A stretch of DNA of 37,903 nt from a virus. Each line of letters starts with the position of its first letter. Within the stretch, counting starts at the first letter, position 1. Under the pieces are notes generated by a model that searched no databases, was not told the origin of the DNA, and saw only the letters and a program-made list of their open reading frames with translations. The position numbers were made by a program, and so were the translations under genes. Of this stretch, positions 16,184 to 37,903 are shown one piece after another. The stretch is from positions 1 to 37,903 of the IMG/VR virus record IMGVR_UViG_3300042353_000105. One strand, given 5' to 3'.

Positions 16184-16209
16184 AATAAGTCCTTAAAGGC
16201 AAATGTAGG

Positions 16210-23253: not shown

Positions 23254-24788
23254 TAACTGCCCATCCAGCTTGTAGAAACTCCAGCGGGAGAATACCTGCT
23301 TGGAGAGCGTCTGTCAACGCGTCCTTGTCGAAAATCCTGTGATGCTACAGGAAAGGCAAACGTAACCGCTATGGCGTCCGCTGCGTCAGGTGACGCCAGC
23401 CCGCGTGACTTCATATCTTTCTTGCTTTCGAGGAATAGCGTACCCTTGCTGTCAGGCTTGGTGCGCGGGCTGATAAGGTCTGTTTTCAAGAACCTGTCGT
23501 TGGGCACATGGCCTGTGCGTAGCCAGTCACGCATGGCGCCCCACATCTCTGCGCGCTTGTTACCCCACATGATCTGATTCTTGGCTTTGTTGCCGAAGTT
23601 CACGCCGCGTATCTTGTACCGCTGTTCCTTCAACCTGTCTACGACGCCTGCGCCTAGCCCGCCTTCGTCGATGCAGACCAGTGCAGGCTTGAACTGCTCT
23701 ATGGCGTCAATGACGTAGCCAGCCACTTCCATCGTGTCAGCCCCGCGGTGTCTCCGCAACTCTAGGATGTCCCGGCCCTGCCGTATGGCGATGACGGTGG
23801 CATCCGCCCCAAAGCGTGCCGGGTCCACGCCTATGACAATGGGCGCGCTGTCATCTTTGACAGGTGGCCGTTTCATGGCATCATCAACCAGATTGCTGCC
23901 GATGAACTGGTCGTCACCTTCTGATGGGAAGTTACCGTAGACTTCGACACTGGCTTGGTAGCTGTCTGGCCCGTACTCGTCGATGATGCGCTGGTACAGG
24001 TGTTTGTCTGTACCCTCGACATCGCGGGCGTCGATGACGCGTGTTGACCAGAACGCCCGCTTGCTGTGGAATGTCTCGTAGAAATACCCTGTGTTGCGCC
24101 GCGGGTTGGAGAAAGCCAGATGGAACCGATGTGGTGTATTCTCTGTGAAGAACCCGTCACTCACCGACCAGATGCTGTCGGGGATACCGCTGGCTTCGTC
24201 GAAGATCAGCATTACACCGTCGAAGTTGTGGACCCCTGCGTATGCGTCGGGGTTCTCTTCAGACCACAGCCGCCCCTCGACTGACCAGTAGCGCGTGCCT
24301 TTCTTCAGGTCACGCTCGACCAGTTCCGTCAGCCACTTGGCTGGCATGATGCGTGTGGCAGCTATCTCGAACCAGTGACTGTTGAGTGACATCGCCAACC
24401 ACTTGGTAATTTCTGCCCATGTGACGGAGCGCAACTGCGCCTCGGAGTTTGCCGACACGATGGTAGTGCTGCCGATCCTTGACGACAGCATCCATATTGT
24501 TAGCCAACTGACTAGGGCGGACTTGCCAATACCGCGTCCTGACGCAATCGCCATCCGCGCTGTGCTGAAGTCTATCTTACCGTTGTTCTCTTTGATGTGG
24601 TCACGCAAGTCAGCTAGTATCTGGCGCTGCCATTTACGCGGGCCGGGGAAGTTCTCCAGCGGTGTGCCTGCTTGGCCCCACGGGAATGTGTACAGCACAA
24701 ATGCTAGTGGGTCATCCTTTAGAGATGGACTCCACAACCTTGCCATCAATTCCATTTCTTCCGATGCGCTGTATATCGGTGTTTGCAT
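23253..24788 (-). CDS. Terminase large subunit
   Basis: A 511-residue packaging motor. The ATPase half has Walker A at 82-90 (ASGRGIGKS) and Walker B at 192-200 (VMLIFDEAS). The nuclease half has GVDPARFG with D321, CIDEGG with D373/E374 and SPDAADAIAV with D467/D470, the three acidic metal sites of the RNase H-like domain. Length agrees with P22 TerL (499). It overlaps the small subunit gene by 77 bases and has its own AGAGGA ribosome binding site. It pumps DNA into the head and cuts concatemers. Confidence 0.96.
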   Translation of the reverse strand: MQTPIYSASEEMELMARLWSPSLKDDPLAFVLYTFPWGQAGTPLENFPGPRKWQRQILADLRDHIKENNGKIDFSTARMAIASGRGIGKSALVSWLTIWMLSSRIGSTTIVSANSEAQLRSVTWAEITKWLAMSLNSHWFEIAATRIMPAKWLTELVERDLKKGTRYWSVEGRLWSEENPDAYAGVHNFDGVMLIFDEASGIPDSIWSVSDGFFTENTPHRFHLAFSNPRRNTGYFYETFHSKRAFWSTRVIDARDVEGTDKHLYQRIIDEYGPDSYQASVEVYGNFPSEGDDQFIGSNLVDDAMKRPPVKDDSAPIVIGVDPARFGADATVIAIRQGRDILELRRHRGADTMEVAGYVIDAIEQFKPALVCIDEGGLGAGVVDRLKEQRYKIRGVNFGNKAKNQIMWGNKRAEMWGAMRDWLRTGHVPNDRFLKTDLISPRTKPDSKGTLFLESKKDMKSRGLASPDAADAIAVTFAFPVASQDFRQGRVDRRSPSRYSPAGVSTSWMGS

Positions 24789-25209
24789 TGGAGTTATCCT
24801 CTAGCTGGGGTATCTCTAGATACGTCCCTTCGATGACGCGCTGTTGGGCTTTCTCCAGTGCGCCTGTAATGCTTATCTGTTGGTCGATGTTTACGTCGAT
24901 CTGTTGCTTGGCTACCCAGCCGTGCTGATGCTTTAGTATCTCCAGTGCAGCCTTAGCGTCGCCATCGCGTGCCGCTTCGTACATGGTCTTGCCGGCGACA
25001 TACTCACCTTCGCTGCGCCCCTTGGCTTCAGCCATCTCGACCAGCGGGTCAGACTCCGCCAGCACGCGAAATTGCCGCGGCGTCATGCCGGCTGCCATAG
25101 CGAGGCTATCACCCTTTAGCCCGTAGCGGGCAGCTTCATAGATTGCCTCTAGCCGCGACTCGGTGGCCTGCGTCCGTTCTGGTGTAAATGGCAGTGAGTA
25201 AAATGTCAT
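24712..25209 (-). CDS. Terminase small subunit
   Basis: About 165 residues (P22 small terminase has 162). It begins MTFYSLPFTPERTQATESRL and has an N-terminal helix-turn-helix-like region (EAARYGLKGDSLAMAAGMTP, RQFRVLAES). A helical oligomerisation region follows (EYVAGKTMYEAARDGDAKAA), then ILKHQHGWVAKQQIDVNI and a polar tail that is encoded over the large-subunit start. It recognises phage DNA to begin packaging. A GTG three codons upstream (25218) is possible. I see no Shine-Dalgarno sequence before either start. Confidence 0.88.
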   Translation of the reverse strand: MTFYSLPFTPERTQATESRLEAIYEAARYGLKGDSLAMAAGMTPRQFRVLAESDPLVEMAEAKGRSEGEYVAGKTMYEAARDGDAKAALEILKHQHGWVAKQQIDVNIDQQISITGALEKAQQRVIEGTYLEIPQLEDNSNANTDIQRIGRNGIDGKVVESISKG

Positions 25210-25216
25210 TAGCTGC

Positions 25217-25245
25217 ACAATAATCTACTGGGAACAAATACGCAA
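25217..25245 (-). promoter_or_regulatory. Possible promoter for the terminase operon
   Basis: On the minus strand TTGCGT (25245-25240), a 17-base spacer, and TATTGT (25222-25217). The -10 box ends seven bases before the ATG at 25209, so transcription would start at or next to the start codon, consistent with the lack of a ribosome binding site. The boxes are imperfect; weak evidence. Confidence 0.3.
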
Positions 25246-25484: not shown

Positions 25485-25515
25485 GTAGGCTATGTAGGCT
25501 ATGACTTTTCAAGTC
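25485..25515. repeat. Iteron cluster A: two gtaggctat repeats plus palindrome
   Basis: Two tandem copies of gtaggctat (25485-25493, 25494-25502) are followed at once by the palindrome gacttttcaagtc (25503-25515; arms GACTT/AAGTC). The same unit recurs at 25557-25596 with three 9-mers. Confidence 0.92.
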
Positions 25516-25556
25516 GGCGATGAATTGAGAGGTGTGTTACTGTGTTAATACAGCAG

Positions 25557-25596
25557 GTAGGCTATGTAGGCTATGTAGGCTATGACTTTTCAAGTC
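25557..25596. repeat. Iteron cluster B: three gtaggctat repeats plus palindrome
   Basis: Three tandem copies of gtaggctat (25557-25565, 25566-25574, 25575-25583) followed directly by gacttttcaagtc (25584-25596). Same order and orientation as cluster A, 41 bases away. The 9-bp period is not a helical turn, so a protein would meet successive copies on rotating faces. Confidence 0.92.
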
Positions 25597-25647
25597 GCGC
25601 GAAAATAACGCGGCGTTACCGGGGGCGGGCCTAATACGTTTCACCCT

Positions 25648-25690
25648 ATATAGTATATAATATTATTCATTTTATTAATGACTATAACTT
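25648..25690. other. AT-rich tract between direct and inverted iterons
   Basis: A run of almost only A and T, including tatatagtatataatattatt and a TATAAT-like hexamer at 25656-25661. It lies between the direct 9-mers on the left and the inverted copies on the right, as an easily melted element in an origin would. It could instead contain a promoter; no good -35 box is visible at proper spacing. Confidence 0.6.
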
Positions 25691-25692
25691 CC

Positions 25693-25777
25693 ATAGCCTA
25701 CCTAGCCTACCTTATCCGCTAACGCGCGCGCTTAAGCCGTTTCGCGGTAGGCGATCAAGCCGCTTTCCATAGCCTAC
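25693..25777. repeat. Inverted and degenerate copies of the 9-bp iteron
   Basis: The reverse complement atagcctac is found exactly at 25693-25701 and 25769-25777. One-mismatch forms are ctagcctac at 25702-25710 and, in direct orientation, gtaggcgat at 25747-25755. With the five direct copies to the left, the region carries seven exact and two near copies within 300 bases. Confidence 0.85.
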
Positions 25778-25894
25778 CTTTCACCTATTTTCACTGGCAA
25801 TGCATTTTACGCTTGCAAGTGACCTCTTATTCTGCGACGGACGTATTGCAACACAATGTGTAGCGATATCGACACAACATAGGAGTGAGACAAT

Positions 25895-26731
25895 ATGTTA
25901 ATGCAAACTAAATCCGAATTGGCGCTGGCTTATGATATATCCGCGCTATCGTTAGATATCCAATTGCAGATTTTAGGCAACGATCACAACCGCTCGTTAT
26001 TTAGCCGCTTCCCCGATAAATTGCTTGGCATTGATACAAACGCCAAAACGATCAAGGGCGAAAAATACGGTATAAAAACGGCTATACTATATCTAATGCC
26101 AGCAATGGGAAGCGGCGTGCAATTGTGCGCTATGGCGTCAACCGCCGGTTGTGAAGGGCCTTGCCTATTCAAAGCCGGGCGCGGCGCTATGTCTAACGTA
26201 ATGTTATCGCGCCTACGCAAAACGCTATACTTCAATCAATACCGCGATCAATTCATGCTGCAATTGCAAAACGAGCTTATCCGCGAGCGGGCTAAGGCAA
26301 AACGCCGCGGTTATAAGCTTATCGTACGTCTAAACGGTACTAGCGACGTACGATGGGAAAATGTCGGCATTGGCTATGCATATGCAAATATCATGCAAGC
26401 TTTACCCGATATCCAGTTTTACGATTATACAAAGCTTGCCAACCGTAAACATATCCCGGCTAATTACGACCTAACATTTAGCTATAGCGGCGTGCCAGCC
26501 TATCAACCGTTTGTCGCTAAGGCCGTCGCTAATGGCGAGCGGATAGCGGTAGTATTCCGCAACCGCGCTATCGTTGAAGCAATGCTAGCCAATGGCGATA
26601 CGTTTTTAGGGCTTCCCGTCGTTGACGGTGACGATACGGATATCCGCCATTTGGACCCTAAGGGCGCTATCGTTGCGCTATACGCTAAAGGCCCGGCACG
26701 CCGCGATCAATCCGGCTTTGTTGTCGGCTAA
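25895..26731 (+). CDS. Gene product 88 (GP88) family protein
   Basis: A 278-residue protein with the marks of the phage GP88 family: a cysteine motif (C78, and GCEGPC with C86 and C90) followed by GRG, then RLNGTSD at 145-151 and FYDYTKL from 175. The function of this family is not established; the cysteines could bind a metal or cluster. It is the first gene of the rightward early operon and directly follows the iteron region. The start at 25895 has a strong AGGAGTGA site. Codon use differs from the late genes (frequent CTA, TTA, ATA, CAA). A role as early regulator or replication factor is a guess based on position. Confidence 0.83.
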   Translation: MLMQTKSELALAYDISALSLDIQLQILGNDHNRSLFSRFPDKLLGIDTNAKTIKGEKYGIKTAILYLMPAMGSGVQLCAMASTAGCEGPCLFKAGRGAMSNVMLSRLRKTLYFNQYRDQFMLQLQNELIRERAKAKRRGYKLIVRLNGTSDVRWENVGIGYAYANIMQALPDIQFYDYTKLANRKHIPANYDLTFSYSGVPAYQPFVAKAVANGERIAVVFRNRAIVEAMLANGDTFLGLPVVDGDDTDIRHLDPKGAIVALYAKGPARRDQSGFVVG

Positions 26732-27626: not shown

Positions 27627-27782
27627 ATGTCACATGAACAAATTGCAATTGTTGCCTTGCTATCCTTGCAAGCCGTTACGTTAATCATTTTATGGCGGAC
27701 ACATTTGGATCGTGAATGGTTCCGCATGGCATGGCTACGCGAAGGCACCGAATTGCTAACCCTCAAGAAAGGGCAAGACTAA
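27627..27782 (+). CDS. Small single-pass membrane protein (51 aa)
   Basis: ATG at 27627, stop overlapping the next ATG at 27782. Begins MSHEQIAIVALLSLQAVTLI; residues about 5-23 form one membrane segment, followed by a charged tail (RTHLDREWFRMAWLREGTEL). It may be an inner-membrane protein with its C-terminal part in the cytoplasm. It is part of a set of three tiny hydrophobic gene products in this operon. Function unknown. Confidence 0.62.
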   Translation: MSHEQIAIVALLSLQAVTLIILWRTHLDREWFRMAWLREGTELLTLKKGQD

Positions 27783-28120
27783 TGGAATATTCACTGCGAA
27801 AACAAATCCAACACTTAGCTAGTTATATAAGCGATAGGAGCGTGATTGCTGCCTATATCAATAATGAGCACGGCTTGAACCTATCGACAGTCGATATAAT
27901 CGAAGTGACGGCGGATAACCGGCGGCGCTTCTACAGTCCAGATCATAAACCTATGATGCCATCGCCGCTGATCGTGACGCACAAGCGCAAAGGATATGAT
28001 GACCTAGCTATGGCGCTATTCAAGTACCATGCCGCCCGGTCATTCGGGCCGGAACAAAAATATTGGCTTGAACGGCTAAACGACAAGCGCGCCAAACCTA
28101 TAACAACAGTGGAGCTATAA
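27782..28120 (+). CDS. Conserved early protein with HTH-like start (112 aa)
   Basis: Starts MEYSLRKQIQHLASYISDRS, then VIAAYINNEHGLNLSTVDII, a pattern like a small helix-turn-helix used by phage regulators. The remainder is charged (KRKGYDDLAMALFKYHAARS). I start the gene at 27782, where the ATG overlaps the stop of the preceding gene, rather than at an upstream GTG. It could control early genes or bind the iteron region; neither is shown by the sequence. Confidence 0.7.
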   Translation: MEYSLRKQIQHLASYISDRSVIAAYINNEHGLNLSTVDIIEVTADNRRRFYSPDHKPMMPSPLIVTHKRKGYDDLAMALFKYHAARSFGPEQKYWLERLNDKRAKPITTVEL

Positions 28121-29298: not shown

Positions 29299-31647
29299 TC
29301 AATTCCTGCCGATGTTTGGCATTGTGCCGGACTTCGGTAATTCTTCAGCCATATGACGCAAATCTGACTTGTTATATTTTGAAAGCACATCCGGCGCGAC
29401 AAATATGTGTTTCTTTGTGGCATAAGCCTTTGATCCGATCCGCCCCATATCAACCCAGCCAGATTCCTTTAACGCATGAAGCAGCGCGGCTGGGGGAACC
29501 TTCACGCCAACAGGGATAAGCGGCGCAAGCGCATCGCAGATACGGTGGAACGGCCCCCCGATGACACCTTCAGCAAACACACCCGACCTTGCACGCATCA
29601 AGTCTACCAGATAGCTTTCTGCTACGCTCATACCATGCTCGACCATGTTTAGCTTCCATTCGGTCACTGGCGGCGTTGCGGCAGGGTTAAACGCCGACAC
29701 GTCGCGCTGGTGCAGCCAAGCGGCGCACTTTTCATAGCCGCCGTTCTGATACCAGCCCCACAGCGCATTAGCTGCGGCTGGCGTCATGCGCGGCGCGCGT
29801 GTCCAGACGCAGAACCAGCGACGATCCTGTGTAGGCAGTGTGATCGGCAGCGGGTCATTCGTGTAGGCGACCACCATCAGGCGGTTGACCAACTCATAGG
29901 GGTGCATCCCCTTACGATTGACGGACAGCGTTTCAGGTGGTGCAGCAATCAGCGGCTTTAGCTTGTTAGCCATCGCCCGGCGTTCTCTTGCCTCTGGTTC
30001 CTTCAACTCGTTCAGGATGACCACTTCAGCTTCCAACGAGTAACCCCATTGGCTATCCAACCCGCCGGCCTCAATGACTGACCTGTTGCGCCAATGCTTA
30101 CCGCCAAGCGCCCAAAGGAACGGCTGGAACATACTGTCCTTGCCCGCGCCTTCATCGCCGCCGATAAGGATTGCATGGTTTATCTTGATCGTTGGGTTCT
30201 GTATCTTGAACGCCATAGCGTCAAGAATGTGATCCAACTCTGTATCGTCCGACACCAGATTGCGGCAATGTCCCAACCAAGGCTCGACATCATGATCCGC
30301 GATTGTGTCGCTAAGGGCTACATCAGGGCGGGCGTTTGTCCACCTGTTGCCGTAGACCAACCCGTCGCGGGTCACCAGAACGTCATCGCCAGCGGCAAAC
30401 GTCACCGCTGCCAGCGCAGGGGCGCCGCGATCTTGACGGCGCTCGTCAAAATAGATGGATGACTGCACGCGCTGCGTCTTCTTATGGATGGAGCGGCAGT
30501 CAACGTGACGGAACAAGGCGTTGAAGACGTTGCGGGCTATCTCTTGGCGCGTCACCATGTCGAAATAGCAGTCATCAGACTGTATATAAGCGAAACGCTC
30601 GAACCACTCGCTTTGTTCCAGCCGCCCTGCTTCTTTCTTTTCGACCTCACGCACGCGCGCTGCGGCTTCGTCAGGAAAGGCTTCCGTTGGCGCTATCTTG
30701 TCATACATGGATGCCATACGTTCAGCGATTAACTCGTCACGCAAGCCGGGCGTTACCTTTGGCCCGCCGTTAGCAGCCACCCAATCAAGGAACGTGCGGC
30801 TGTCTAAGTCTTGGCAGTGTCCATGATAGCAGCAGAACGAACGATCCAGCGGCTTGTAGCGCGCCTCTATCATGCCATCGCTGTGGTCTGCATGGTTAGG
30901 ACAGACGATAGCACACCAGCCGTCATTGTTCAGCGTGCTAAGGACTAGGCTCTTTTCGTTTAACCATGTCAGGACGTTGTCCAGCCCACTGTCGCGCAAC
31001 TGCACAGCCTTAAACTCTGCGGTGTCGCCTTCGGCTGGCGTAACGTCTAGCGCACTACAAATCTGTGCTAAATCGTATTCGCGCTCTGGGTGAAACTCGA
31101 CCAGCCGCGCAGGAAAGCCACCACGCCCCCGCTTCATGTTGACGCTGCCGGGGATACGACAGTTGCGGACAGCGTTAGTCGCGCCCGGATCAGTGTAGCC
31201 AGCATCTGCAATAGCTTTGATGGCAGCGCAGAAGTCGCCCTTGTTTGGCTGTTCGTTGAACGCATAGCCCCACTGGAACGAACCTTCGCTGGTTTCTAGT
31301 ATCCATGTCGGGTCAAGCGGCGGTGTCTTTGACTTTGTGCCGATGTCATCCAGCATCATGAACAACACGAACTCGACGTTGCTCGACTTGGCAGCGGGCT
31401 TGCCGTCTACAAAGCGGTCAACGATGAACGATCCTGTGTTGACATACCAAGCCTCGCCTTCTTTCATGCGGGCCTTTTCTGGCAAGAACGCAGGAAAGGT
31501 TGCCTTCGGTGCGCCGTCTGCGTGGTATATCAGGTTGCCATCGCTGTCATGCGTGGGCTTCTGACGAACGACTAAAGCTGTTTCGCCCACTGTATCAGCG
31601 GCCAATCCAGTTATGTAGTCGATGAACTTAATGCGATCCTCACTCAT
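29299..31647 (-). CDS. Primase-helicase (RepB-type primase, zinc finger, SF3-like helicase)
   Basis: About 782 residues with three parts. Residues 90-190 form a primase-polymerase type domain with the acidic pair in MLDDIGTK (D100, D101) and later RIPGSVNMKR. Residues 249-278 form a Cys/His cluster (CPNH ... CCYHGHC), a zinc finger as in DNA primases. Residues 480-640 form a helicase of the DUF5906/SF3-like type with Walker A GGDEGAGKD (496-504) and Walker B VVILNEL (542-548). The start at 31647 is chosen because GGAG lies seven bases upstream; a longer form from 31668 is possible. It would unwind DNA and make primers for the adjoining DNA polymerase. Confidence 0.87.
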   Translation of the reverse strand: MSEDRIKFIDYITGLAADTVGETALVVRQKPTHDSDGNLIYHADGAPKATFPAFLPEKARMKEGEAWYVNTGSFIVDRFVDGKPAAKSSNVEFVLFMMLDDIGTKSKTPPLDPTWILETSEGSFQWGYAFNEQPNKGDFCAAIKAIADAGYTDPGATNAVRNCRIPGSVNMKRGRGGFPARLVEFHPEREYDLAQICSALDVTPAEGDTAEFKAVQLRDSGLDNVLTWLNEKSLVLSTLNNDGWCAIVCPNHADHSDGMIEARYKPLDRSFCCYHGHCQDLDSRTFLDWVAANGGPKVTPGLRDELIAERMASMYDKIAPTEAFPDEAAARVREVEKKEAGRLEQSEWFERFAYIQSDDCYFDMVTRQEIARNVFNALFRHVDCRSIHKKTQRVQSSIYFDERRQDRGAPALAAVTFAAGDDVLVTRDGLVYGNRWTNARPDVALSDTIADHDVEPWLGHCRNLVSDDTELDHILDAMAFKIQNPTIKINHAILIGGDEGAGKDSMFQPFLWALGGKHWRNRSVIEAGGLDSQWGYSLEAEVVILNELKEPEARERRAMANKLKPLIAAPPETLSVNRKGMHPYELVNRLMVVAYTNDPLPITLPTQDRRWFCVWTRAPRMTPAAANALWGWYQNGGYEKCAAWLHQRDVSAFNPAATPPVTEWKLNMVEHGMSVAESYLVDLMRARSGVFAEGVIGGPFHRICDALAPLIPVGVKVPPAALLHALKESGWVDMGRIGSKAYATKKHIFVAPDVLSKYNKSDLRHMAEELPKSGTMPNIGRN

Positions 31648-31657
31648 CGCTTGCTCC

Positions 31658-33613
31658 TTATTTTCCATAACGATCCATGATAGCCACTTCAGCGTTCAGG
31701 GGAAGCCCTGATGCCCAAGGTGGCGGCGTACACATTGTCTGCACCAGCCGCGCTGCGGCAGCCTCTGCATCTTCTTCTGGCACTTCCAAAACGATTTCAT
31801 CGTGGATGTGCAAAACTACATCGTCCAACTGCCGCAAGGCGTAGCGCAGCAAGTCGTTGGCGACAGCCTGTGTGATGTTTTCACACGCTAGACCGCGCCA
31901 TAGCCGCGCCCTTGGCCACTCCTTAGCGTCGGCTGCGGGCTTCCAAGAAGCCTTCGCGTAGGTCAGGTCACCTTTCTCATCGAAACGGGCGAAAGGATAA
32001 CATAACACACGGCGCGACGGAAGCGCATACCAAAGATGCAATCCGTCAAATAAATATGTAACGCGGCCAACAGTGAACTCGCGGTTCTTATTCCGCATGG
32101 CACGCATATAGGTGTCTTCAAGGCCCGCCCAGTACGGCACGGCCCACTTGTTAGCCCTGCGCCATGCGTCCACCATGCGCTTTGCATCGCTCTCTGACAT
32201 CAACAAGCCGTAGATGCGGCCCATGCTGGCAAACGCACCGACGCCGCCGGCAAAGCCGCAAGCCAACTCTTGCACCTTACCGATCTGGCGCTGGTCTGTG
32301 TTGACCTCGCCGTAACCGACATGGAAGGTTGCCATAGCGTTGTGCTTGTACACGTCCTCGCCCTTGGCAAAGATGTCCAGCTTGGTTGCGCCGGAGGCAC
32401 TGTTGGATGCCCACGGCGTCACACGCGCTTCAATGGCTGCCCAATCGGCAACCACAAGCCGCTTGCCTTTGCCCGCCATCAGCGATGGGCGCAGCATACC
32501 TTTTAGAACGTCAGTTACGCGGCGGCCATGATCGGGAACAATTTGATGCCCGCGCACCATAGCCTGCCGTACTAATGCCGGGTCGGCTGCACACTTGCGT
32601 GGGAAGTTATGGACTTGAAGCCCAAATGATGAAGCACGGCCAGTAGCACTTCCTCCTGAAAATACGAACGCTCCTCTAACCTTATGATCCTCCTCGTCAG
32701 CAAGCGCCGCCGCACGTTGGAATTTAGCAACGGACGATGCCCACAGATCGTCCGCGCACTGGATGACTTCCGCAACTTCCGATGGTACTTCATCTGGATT
32801 TTCCTCCGCTAGTATTAGCAGTTTAGCACGTACATTCTTATCCATCGACATCTTTTCAACGCCGTCCTTCATGACTTTCGCCAGTTCAAGCGCCTGCGGC
32901 CCTATCCTGTCCAGCACCCAATTCTTCATCTTGGGGCTGCGGACGGTCTTAATCTCGCCGTCTGTTATCTCTGCAACGATGTCTTGTATCTCAGCCTTTT
33001 CTTCTTCAGCGTAGCGCACGGCAGCCAGCGCCAATGGCCGGTCAAGCAACACGCCGCGGTCGTTGATGCGCTCGTTGACATGATAGTCTGCCAACTCTTC
33101 GTCAGACAGCGGACGCTGCGCCTGCGCTATGGCACGCATGGCCCGCACGTCCTGTTCGCAATAGTCAACCATCTCCTGCATCAGCTTGGCGTCTTCGCGG
33201 AATGTGCCGTCGCCTTGCGGGATGGATAGCGCGCGGATCAGTTGTCCGCCGCGGTGGTCTTTTTTCATGGTGGCGCCAGCGAAGCGACCCACATCCTCAA
33301 GGCTGCCCGGCGCGCAGTTGCCGCGGGCTTGTGCTGCGGTGCAATAAAACTGCTCCAGCTTAAACTCGACCTGTAGGACATACCAGAATATCAGGCGCTC
33401 AAACGCTGCGTTGTGCGCGTACACCAGCCCCATATGATCTTTGACGGCTTGCGGGAAAGGCTCACTAGGAAGCCACGTCCGCACGTCTTCGTCATCAAAT
33501 GCGTATGACATACACAGCACGTCGGTGCTGGCGTCCTGCGCGTAGTTGTACACGCCGCGGCTGCGTAAATCGCAACGGCTCCTAGTTTCGAAATCACACC
33601 ATAATTTAGACAT
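31658..33613 (-). CDS. Family A DNA polymerase with proofreading domain
   Basis: About 651 residues. The N-terminal 3'-5' exonuclease has LWCDFETRS (D7, E9), AHNAAFE (N68) and YCEQDV (D155). The polymerase has motif A VVADWAAIEARV (D390), motif B RQIGKVQELACGFAGG (from R442) and motif C HDE (604-606). There is no 5'-3' exonuclease domain, as in other phage polymerases of this group. The start at 33613 (MSKLW) puts the exonuclease motif at the N-terminus as in relatives. It copies the phage genome and lies between the primase-helicase and the ssDNA-binding candidate in one operon. Confidence 0.94.
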   Translation of the reverse strand: MSKLWCDFETRSRCDLRSRGVYNYAQDASTDVLCMSYAFDDEDVRTWLPSEPFPQAVKDHMGLVYAHNAAFERLIFWYVLQVEFKLEQFYCTAAQARGNCAPGSLEDVGRFAGATMKKDHRGGQLIRALSIPQGDGTFREDAKLMQEMVDYCEQDVRAMRAIAQAQRPLSDEELADYHVNERINDRGVLLDRPLALAAVRYAEEEKAEIQDIVAEITDGEIKTVRSPKMKNWVLDRIGPQALELAKVMKDGVEKMSMDKNVRAKLLILAEENPDEVPSEVAEVIQCADDLWASSVAKFQRAAALADEEDHKVRGAFVFSGGSATGRASSFGLQVHNFPRKCAADPALVRQAMVRGHQIVPDHGRRVTDVLKGMLRPSLMAGKGKRLVVADWAAIEARVTPWASNSASGATKLDIFAKGEDVYKHNAMATFHVGYGEVNTDQRQIGKVQELACGFAGGVGAFASMGRIYGLLMSESDAKRMVDAWRRANKWAVPYWAGLEDTYMRAMRNKNREFTVGRVTYLFDGLHLWYALPSRRVLCYPFARFDEKGDLTYAKASWKPAADAKEWPRARLWRGLACENITQAVANDLLRYALRQLDDVVLHIHDEIVLEVPEEDAEAAAARLVQTMCTPPPWASGLPLNAEVAIMDRYGK

Positions 33614-34355: not shown

Positions 34356-35477
34356 TTACTGGATTTTGGCCATAGCTTTGGTAAGCATCTGACCGATTTG
34401 TAAAACCGCTGGCCGGGAATCATTTTCCGGCGCAAGGGTTGAACCACTGGAGACAGCGACGATTAAGTCCGCTGGCAATTCTATCTTGGCTTTCTTCAAA
34501 GCCTTTTCCGCTTGTGCAGGCGACAGCGGCTTGGGATCAGCCCATGCCTCTACGCCAGCAGCCGACATGAAGGCTACAGCTTTATCCTCGTTTGTCCACT
34601 GCCTTGTTGCACGTTTGTTGACCAGCTTCCAGCCGGGGACTTTCTGTCCCGCTTCCAAAAGACCATGCGCCAACTGCTGCAAATCCTTAATGAACGCCTC
34701 AATCATGGGCGCCTGCTCCAGATAGTGCGCTATCTGATCGACAGGCAGTGCTTCCATCTGGACTTTCAGCGCACGGTCTACAGCGCCGGTCATGACAGGG
34801 CAGACAGGCTTGGCCGCGCACCACTTGCAATGATCGCCTGACGCCAACGGTGCGTCTGGCTGCATTGCAATCTTGACGGCAGTGGCAAGTTCTTGCTCAA
34901 ACGCATCGACGCGGTCTAGCGTTGTCACCCACCGCTTAACAAACGGTGGTTGTACAATGATTAGTTCTACTTCTTTGGCTCCGTCAAAGGCCCACGCCGT
35001 TTCCGCCGTTCGCCTAGCTGCCGCAGCGTAGAAGAGTAGCTGGCTGTTTTCCTCGACTTCGACAGCCACGCCATCGCCAAACTTCCAATCCAGAACGACC
35101 GCTCTATCACCAATGCGGCCAAGAAGATCGGTAGAACCAAAAACGTCAGGCAGAAAATCACCAAAACCAACCCGGCTCTCAACAGCATAAGTCATCTCCC
35201 CCTTTGGGTCTATCTCGTCCAGCGCACGCAGCGCGGGAACCAGCTTGTCATCCACCAACGCTTCGGTCAATACGCTATCAGCGTATGTTGTGCCGACCAT
35301 GCTATACGGATCAACGTCACGTTCTAATATAGAAGCTATAGTGTCATGCAGGAGCGTGCCTTCGTCGGCGTAGCTGCTGCTGGGCTTTGGTGGGACTGTG
35401 TCCACAAGCGCCACGCTGCCGGGGCAGGCTATGACGCGCTTGGCGGTCGAACCGCCGACTATCTTACTATGTTGCAT
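34356..35477 (-). CDS. DUF2800 PD-(D/E)XK nuclease with Fe-S type cysteines
   Basis: A 373-residue protein of the RecB/Cas4/AddB-like nuclease type. H44 (GTLLHDTIAS), D117 (GSTDLLG), D130-x-K132 (VVLDWKFG) and Q146 (QLLFYAA) are the expected catalytic residues. C18 together with C217, C220 and C226 (HCKWCAAKPVC) forms the split four-cysteine layout that binds an iron-sulphur cluster in AddB and Cas4. The start at 35477 has GAGG six bases upstream; a longer frame reaches into the promoter region. As first gene of the replication operon it is probably a recombination exonuclease that works with the ssDNA-binding protein. Confidence 0.86.
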   Translation of the reverse strand: MQHSKIVGGSTAKRVIACPGSVALVDTVPPKPSSSYADEGTLLHDTIASILERDVDPYSMVGTTYADSVLTEALVDDKLVPALRALDEIDPKGEMTYAVESRVGFGDFLPDVFGSTDLLGRIGDRAVVLDWKFGDGVAVEVEENSQLLFYAAAARRTAETAWAFDGAKEVELIIVQPPFVKRWVTTLDRVDAFEQELATAVKIAMQPDAPLASGDHCKWCAAKPVCPVMTGAVDRALKVQMEALPVDQIAHYLEQAPMIEAFIKDLQQLAHGLLEAGQKVPGWKLVNKRATRQWTNEDKAVAFMSAAGVEAWADPKPLSPAQAEKALKKAKIELPADLIVAVSSGSTLAPENDSRPAVLQIGQMLTKAMAKIQ

Positions 35478-35574
35478 ACTGTACCTCACTTTACTGTTTG
35501 AGTGGCCGGTATAGACTGCAACATTTTTTAATGCAAGCCTTGAAATGCAAAAAATTTTGTAGTAGCCTTTTGGC
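35478..35574. promoter_or_regulatory. Divergent promoter region between replication operons
   Basis: Leftward candidate: TTGCAT (35536-35531), 17-base spacer, TATACC (35513-35508), 31 bases before the nuclease start and upstream of its ribosome binding site. Rightward candidate: TTGAAA (35540-35545), 17-base spacer, TAGCCT (35563-35568), six bases before the VRR-NUC start, which has no ribosome binding site. Both are imperfect matches. Confidence 0.45.
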
Positions 35575-35850
35575 ATGACTGAGAAAGAAATAGAGCGGTA
35601 CTTCTGCAAACGTGTGCGGGCATTGGGCGGCTTTGCTTACAAGTTCCGCAGCGTTACGCAGATAGGCGTTGCCGACCGCATAGCTTGTATGCCTAACGGC
35701 GAGGCTTGGTTTGTAGAAATCAAGCAGCCCAACGGACGCCTGTCTGCGTTGCAGCGTATATTTTCAGACGAGATGGCACACACCAAGCAGCATTACGCGT
35801 GCTTGTGGTCAGTAGAGGACATAGATGTATGGCTCAAACGCTTCAGCTAA
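35575..35850 (+). CDS. VRR-NUC domain nuclease
   Basis: A 91-residue single-domain VRR-NUC (PD-(D/E)XK-like) enzyme, about the standard length of phage versions. Visible motifs: an early Glu (MTEKEIERYF), GVADRI with D34, EIKQPNG with E48 and K50, and LSALQ with Q60. Such enzymes act as junction-resolving or structure-specific nucleases. Its 3' end overlaps the helicase gene by 22 bases, a pairing common in phages. There is no obvious ribosome binding site before the ATG; a leaderless start is possible. Confidence 0.92.
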   Translation: MTEKEIERYFCKRVRALGGFAYKFRSVTQIGVADRIACMPNGEAWFVEIKQPNGRLSALQRIFSDEMAHTKQHYACLWSVEDIDVWLKRFS

Positions 35851-37776: not shown

Positions 37777-37903
37777 TATAAACCGTCAATTATCAATCAT
37801 GTCGATTTTCTAACAAGAATATTTCGCAAACAGGCGCACAGCTTGGGTTTACGGGATATGCACTTCAAACAACATTAAGCTACCTCGAGCATTTCGGTGG
37901 TAA
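37777..37903. repeat. Terminal direct repeat, right copy
   Basis: Identical to positions 1-127. The last 29 bases (37875-37903) duplicate the 3' end of the metallophosphoesterase gene on the minus strand and are not a separate gene. It shows that the contig is circular or has redundant ends; it should be trimmed before counting genes. Confidence 0.95.

Follow-up and report, generated by a model that had tools for sequence, protein, structure and literature searches.

An intergenic iteron array in a freshwater phage as a probable replication origin with the phage primase-helicase as its proposed reader

The virus record IMGVR_UViG_3300042353_000105 of IMG/VR, analyzed here over its full length of 37,903 bases (the window), derives from a freshwater phage with P22-type head genes. 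In the intergenic region between 25218 and 25895 it holds an array of short direct and inverted repeats, or iterons, which separates the minus-strand late genes, with the probable gene of the terminase small subunit (TerS) nearest to it, from the plus-strand early gene GP88. This array and its relation to the primase-helicase encoded by the same phage are the subject of the present analysis.

The repeat unit GTAGGCTAT is present in eight exact copies in the window, both strands counted, and seven of these are confined to 293 bp, against a mean of 0.19 and a maximum of 2 copies in dinucleotide shuffles of the whole window, none of which (0/100) reached eight. The direct copies are located at 25485, 25494, 25557, 25566 and 25575, the inverted ones at 25693 and 25769, and an isolated copy is found at 16205. 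An initial annotation of this DNA had described seven exact 9-mers within 300 bases as far from chance, together with two near copies, the solitary exact copy, an AT-rich tract between direct and inverted copies and a position at the boundary of late and early genes, and all of this is borne out by exact matching, base composition and the gene map. The elements of the array are the following:

25485..25502, plus strand: left direct iteron pair, 2 x GTAGGCTAT; exact matches, with a homologous half-array in relatives
25510..25516, plus strand: CAAGTCG box after the left half-array, the right half of a palindrome; conserved, the left half of the palindrome not
25557..25583, plus strand: second direct iteron array, 3 x GTAGGCTAT; exact matches and alignment with relatives
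25591..25597, plus strand: CAAGTCG box after the second half-array; conserved
25631..25690, no strand: AT-rich tract (80% AT), unsurpassed in AT content by any other 60 bp of the window; candidate strand-opening site between the two iteron sets
25693..25701, minus strand: inverted iteron, exact GTAGGCTAT
25702..25710, minus strand: inverted iteron, 8/9 near copy CTAGCCTAC; pairs with 25693-25701, the inverted pair being kept in relatives
25747..25755, plus strand: direct near copy GTAGGCGAT, 8/9
25769..25777, minus strand: outer inverted iteron, exact GTAGGCTAT
25801..25860, plus strand: block separating the array from the first early gene, conserved in the alignment with relatives

The palindrome GACTTTTCAAGTC, which had been reported to close each direct array, is indeed present exactly twice, at 25503 and 25584, in both cases directly after a direct array. 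Its left half differs among relatives, however, reading GCGTTTT, GAGATAA, CGGTTTT or GACAATT as evidenced by alignment and by reading of the sequences, while CAAGTC follows both direct half-arrays at a constant spacing from their last repeat, also in relatives with another repeat word. We have therefore rejected the 13-bp palindrome as a functional element, as only its right half, CAAGTC, is conserved, and judging from the alignment the full palindrome is incidental.

For comparison we have examined 28 further contigs that share TerS, the terminase large subunit (TerL), polymerase and primase with the window, with primase identities of 58-95%; note that nearly all loci compared in this study are uncultured contigs. 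Close relatives lack the same 9-mer, yet they retain the same layout in the same place, upstream of the TerS gene. It begins with two direct half-arrays, each trailed by about seven free bases and CAAGTC; the AT-rich tract comes next, then a pair of inverted copies with a further inverted copy outside it, and last a conserved block that precedes the first early gene. The expectation of the initial annotation that related phages would carry the same array thus holds for layout and place, but not for the 9-mer word itself, and repeat words in relatives include TAGGCTAT, TGGGTCAT, GACGTCAT, TGGACAAT, GGCGGTTTAGGCTAT, GTAGGTCAT and GTGGACAAT. In an unguided search for clustered 8-mers, the best or near-best cluster of the genome was located 230-490 bp upstream of TerS in most of the 28 contigs. 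The cluster was weak or displaced in G020, G024, G025 and G027-G031 (handles with G or L are our own), and in G020, G024, G027, G028 and G030 arrays were recognised on reading the sequence. The more distant phage MW202483, whose primase is 52% identical, has an 11-copy cluster of GTTTACA at the equivalent place. Compared at the nucleotide level with phage records, the array region gave chance matches only, and the exact double 9-mer was found in 4 stretches of viral contigs, a count that was not used as a measure of conservation because relatives carry altered words.

Several relatives show peculiarities of their own in this region. The spacer between the half-arrays (e.g. in L168 = G014 and L172-L173 = G016) holds interchangeable palindromes, CTTTACGTTAACGTAAAG, TGTGTTACTGTGTTAATACAGCA and GTTTACAATTGTTAAC, that differ among close relatives as if shuffled, and in G026 (L190-L191) a stretch of the origin core upstream of TerS, including the AT tract and the inverted repeats, is duplicated in tandem. 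The stretch corresponding to 25801-25860 appears to hold a sigma-70-like TTGACA...ATATAA promoter in some relatives (e.g. G014), and in relatives such as G014 and G019 this promoter and repeated GAGGG words to the right of the array may represent a separate operator. In G028 (L194-L195) a 21-copy cluster of GCCGTAGC lies 5.3 kb from TerS, separate from the origin-like array.

The protein whose variation follows that of the repeats is the primase-helicase. It comprises a RepB-type primase (residues 102-200), a DUF5906/VapE-like helicase (residues about 480-624) and a predicted C-terminal winged helix; the Pfam families RepB_primase and DUF5906 both score above cut-off in the one chain, an archaeo-eukaryotic primase (AEP) fused to a D5/SF3-like helicase. 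The relevant features are:

29299..31668, minus strand: primase-helicase gene, 789 amino acids, proposed initiator
29398..29454, minus strand: codons 739-757, predicted beta-hairpin wing, the proposed iteron-reading part according to structure models
29428..29430, minus strand: codon of K747, the residue that varies with the first iteron base (K/R where this is G)
29434..29436, minus strand: codon of G745, which tracks the core word of the iteron

In the covariation analysis every column of 12 core proteins was compared with the repeats, amounting to 4414 columns for a set of 33 loci and 4738 columns for a set of 65. The 33 loci were labelled by repeat word from word counts, in the case of G020 also by reading of the sequence, and residue 745 was the only one of the 4414 columns that predicted the repeat class completely, with G in 19/19, N in 6/6 and A or H in 8/8 loci of the respective classes. 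The class labels require 11 changes on a tree of primase residues 1-700, compared to 12.6 for shuffled labels, and as they are scattered over the tree in this way the association is hardly explained by shared descent. A rule for residue 745 was fixed before further sequences were inspected, G predicting TAGGC, N predicting GACGTC and H or A predicting TGGGTC, and among 29 new contigs, 18 of which were callable, it was correct in 17. The coincidence of N745 with GACGTCAT was seen in 7/7 independent pairs (p 0.016).

A second position tracks the first base of the repeat. The window, with K747 and GTAGGCTAT, and the near-identical G001, with T747 and CTAGGCTAT, form a natural pair, and from their comparison arose the rule that repeats starting with G are accompanied by K or R at 747. 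It holds without exception among the 65 loci, G being the first base in all 24 with K/R747 and in none of the remaining 41, and no other of the 4738 columns separates the two groups outside the GACGTCAT class, for which the numbering of positions depends on an alignment of the words at their CAT end. On the primase 1-700 tree the trait switches 14 times, and 9/9 independent pairs on well-supported branches agree (p 0.004), although the 747 rule is less independent than that for 745, having been found on part of the same data. In L312 and L313, two contigs from bacterial assemblies that both have R747, the repeats also start with G, as judged by eye only. The surroundings of residue 745 are near-invariant (W738, D740, G742, R743, S746, K752 and H754). 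Since residues 745 and 747 change in step with the letters of the repeats across these viruses, the comparison points to the primase-helicase as their reader.

A winged helix is predicted for the C-terminal 150 residues, with a mean pLDDT (predicted local distance difference test) of 74, and of 76-88 over the domain. Its helices span 707-717 and 726-735 and its strands 739-744 and 753-757, so that in the model 745 and 747 fall into the loop between the strands, the wing. Structural comparison of the model yielded weak matches, mostly winged helices, among them residues 619-718 of the NrS-1 helicase, and a fold search with the winged helix gave no close match among the matches listed.

The surroundings of the array resemble those of an origin in several respects. 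In 21 of 29 genomes including the present one, the most AT-rich 60-bp window of the genome is located within the array region, where 0.7 would be expected. Of 12 exact DnaA boxes (TTATCCACA) in the 29 genomes, 8 are inside the 1-kb array region, a 71-fold enrichment for which a binomial p would come out too small because the 29 genomes are related; such boxes stand beside the iterons in 8/29 genomes. The GC-skew minimum region of the window, 35320-35706, coincides with a second divergence point, between the exonuclease and helicase genes, and is confounded by gene direction. An AT-skew minimum at 25833 was set aside as an origin signal, as it coincides with the switch of gene direction.

The repeats are thus very probably the site at which the phage starts copying its DNA, and we hold with considerable confidence that the array is a replication origin loaded by the primase-helicase, whose wing residues 745 and 747 read core and first base, respectively. 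Of the initial annotation's two suggestions, origin or early operator, the former is strongly supported, and among the binders it proposed the covariation of its C-terminal end with the repeats argues for the primase-helicase. The computational basis consists in the conserved layout and place, the AT-rich centre, the DnaA boxes enriched in relatives and the covariation of repeat and protein with repeated independent switches. In the proposed mechanism, the C-terminal winged-helix domain would bind the 9-bp iterons and copies of the protein would gather on two opposed iteron sets flanking the AT-richest tract, where the helicase domains would melt the duplex and encircle the strands; the primase domain would then start synthesis, and the DNA polymerase encoded by the phage would take over from there. 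That the protein physically binds the repeats, opens the strands and fires the origin we infer by analogy, since in related systems the C-terminal domains of SaPI Rep and Cch2 bind iterons and two iteron sets flank an AT-rich region.

Several observations weigh against this interpretation. The arrays are weak or unclear in the distant relatives G025, G029 and G031, the window's own array has no exact DnaA box, and the winged-helix matches are weak (best Z 5.7, none with a Foldseek E below 0.07). The 745 rule failed once, in L268, whose loop IACVDHP is of a type already known with mixed arrays, and three class-A loci in the 65-locus table are without G745. Finally, the turn of GC skew that had been anticipated for an origin is not found at the array, the minimum of the window being at 35320 and the mean of 23 relatives turning elsewhere; as gene direction confounds the skew, it neither supports nor refutes an origin.

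The alternatives involve further genes of the phage, which are arranged as follows:

minus strand: late block of TerL, portal, coat and head-closure genes
24712-25218: probable TerS gene
25895-26731, plus strand: early gene GP88, with further small early genes alongside
27716-28120: early gene of a helix-turn-helix (HTH)-like protein
minus strand, like the primase-helicase: genes of a family A DNA polymerase, a nucleotidyltransferase-like protein and an exonuclease
plus strand: SNF2/DEAD helicase gene

The array might serve in packaging, with the terminase small subunit binding the repeats to start headful packaging in the manner of the hexamer repeats of the P1 pac site. It does adjoin the TerS gene in relatives, and end overlaps of 114-127 bases in several records, which resemble assembly overlaps, suggest a circularly permuted genome; TerS identity, however, is about equal within and between repeat classes, and neither an AT-rich centre nor DnaA boxes would be needed at a pac site. 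As no TerS column tracks the repeats, TerS was rejected as their binder, and we consider this explanation very improbable. No more weight can be given to an early operator, a site from which a small regulator of the phage, for instance the HTH-like protein, would control the divergent promoters. The position at the divergence of late and early transcription, beside an early promoter, would suit an operator, but the HTH-like protein does not group by repeat class, the best of its columns is informative only in part, and it was not detected in many array-bearing relatives, while the covarying residues sit in the primase-helicase. Both other binders of the initial annotation were discarded: the HTH-like protein, which does not track the repeat word, and GP88, whose gene is absent from most array-bearing relatives, where other small genes take its position. 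Autoregulation by the primase-helicase may exist on top of an origin function.

Covariation shows recognition and not the events that follow, and the primase-helicase could also bind the repeats as an autoregulator or as a priming or helicase-loading site for a fork started elsewhere, in keeping with the GC skew that does not turn at the array. Both the AT maximum, flanked by opposed iterons, and the occurrence of DnaA boxes in relatives nevertheless fit strand opening, and related self-loading helicases use such sites as origins, which makes this possibility an unlikely one. Another reading would attribute the association to linkage and not to recognition, repeats and primase C-terminal end being swapped as one block by recombination. 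The two are about 3.6 kb apart and the intervening early region has frequently been replaced in relatives, and in sister pairs of different class identity decreases to 71-88% over the terminal ~300 nt of the primase gene, with none left at the array. In the same pairs, however, identity often returns to 80-96% in pieces between, and over the remainder of the primase gene it is mostly 85-97%, with a patchy alignment in the early region, and in G014/L092 the stretches between primase end and array are 90-96% identical. Because identity recovers between the two and the intervening early genes do not track the repeat word, an exchange of one block is unlikely, and given that only wing columns are fully associated, over at least nine independent switches, we rate it as highly so.

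With respect to the genome as a whole, the first 127 bases of the record (1-127) are identical to the last 127 (37777-37903), and because of this exact overlap the record, though classed as linear, is probably a complete circle of 37,776 bases. An overlap of this length is typical for assembly, and relatives show similar ones of 114-127 bases. MW202483 has a 60% identical polymerase and annotated P22-like coat and portal proteins; in bacterial genome assemblies relatives are represented by few short contigs, all in binned assemblies.

From sequence comparison, an origin, its initiator and the likely DNA-reading loop can be assigned to an uncultured group of freshwater phages, for which, as for its recognition loop, no paper was found in a literature search whose coverage excluded most subscription journals. 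On balance we favor the broader view that these are a widespread group of freshwater tailed phages with an origin like that of phage-inducible chromosomal islands (PICIs), in which the repeat word switches repeatedly according to a simple two-residue wing code, with K or R at 747 reading a G in the first position and G, N or H/A at 745 choosing the core. Switching would divide the phages into groups of distinct replication specificity, by which co-infecting phages, or satellites that borrow initiators, may be kept apart. The natural pair of the window and G001 makes this code testable by changes of one residue and one base.

The origin of phage lambda and the related one of P22 also combine iterons with an AT-rich tract, but within the initiator gene, and their binders are O-like proteins; the present array differs in being intergenic and in having the primase-helicase as its proposed binder. 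The P4 alpha protein binds short iterons at ori and crr, but P4 is a satellite, and its repeats and two-site arrangement differ from the present array. The only solved relative found by sequence is the C-terminal region of the NrS-1 primase-polymerase (PDB 6k9c, 6k9e), over the helicase part. Its end (619-718) weakly matches the winged helix, whereas the N-terminus of the present protein is a RepB-type primase. We know of no iteron origin for NrS-1. A fusion of primase and helicase is described for P4 alpha (PMC7145576). In RepA of the PICI-like elements (PLEs), initiator domain and iteron covary and the swapping of specificity is linked to escape from an origin-cutting nuclease (PMC8263062), and in geminivirus Rep an iteron-related domain was found by comparison (PMC10653810), but these initiators, RepA_N and rolling-circle Rep, are unrelated. 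The frequent switching seen here raises the question of what selects phages to change their own origin word, as origin-cutting nucleases appear to do for PLE satellites.

Close parallels are found among staphylococcal elements and PICIs. Cch2 of the staphylococcal cassette chromosome SCCmec, a D5-type helicase, recognises short direct repeats specifically through its C-terminal domain (PMC7581432); its repeats, however, are three copies of the five-base AAGTG, and its primase is separate. The Staphylococcus aureus pathogenicity islands (SaPIs) with their Rep, and Gram-negative PICIs with a pri-rep-ori arrangement, initiate by means of a self-loading helicase, joined to a primase in some of them, the C-terminal domain of which reads the iterons (PMC6092414, PMC7581432); as judged by covariation the present protein would do the same. 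Their origin lies directly downstream of the rep gene, whereas the array, beside terminase, is separated by about 3.6 kb from the 3' end of its proposed initiator's gene. They are satellites, while the present genome is that of a complete tailed phage, which encodes a polymerase of its own as well as TerL, portal, coat and head-closure proteins. Two iteron sets flanking an AT-rich region have been described as common to all PICIs studied and to no other known bacterial replicon (PMC6092414), and our analysis would now place this supposedly satellite-specific origin layout in full phages.
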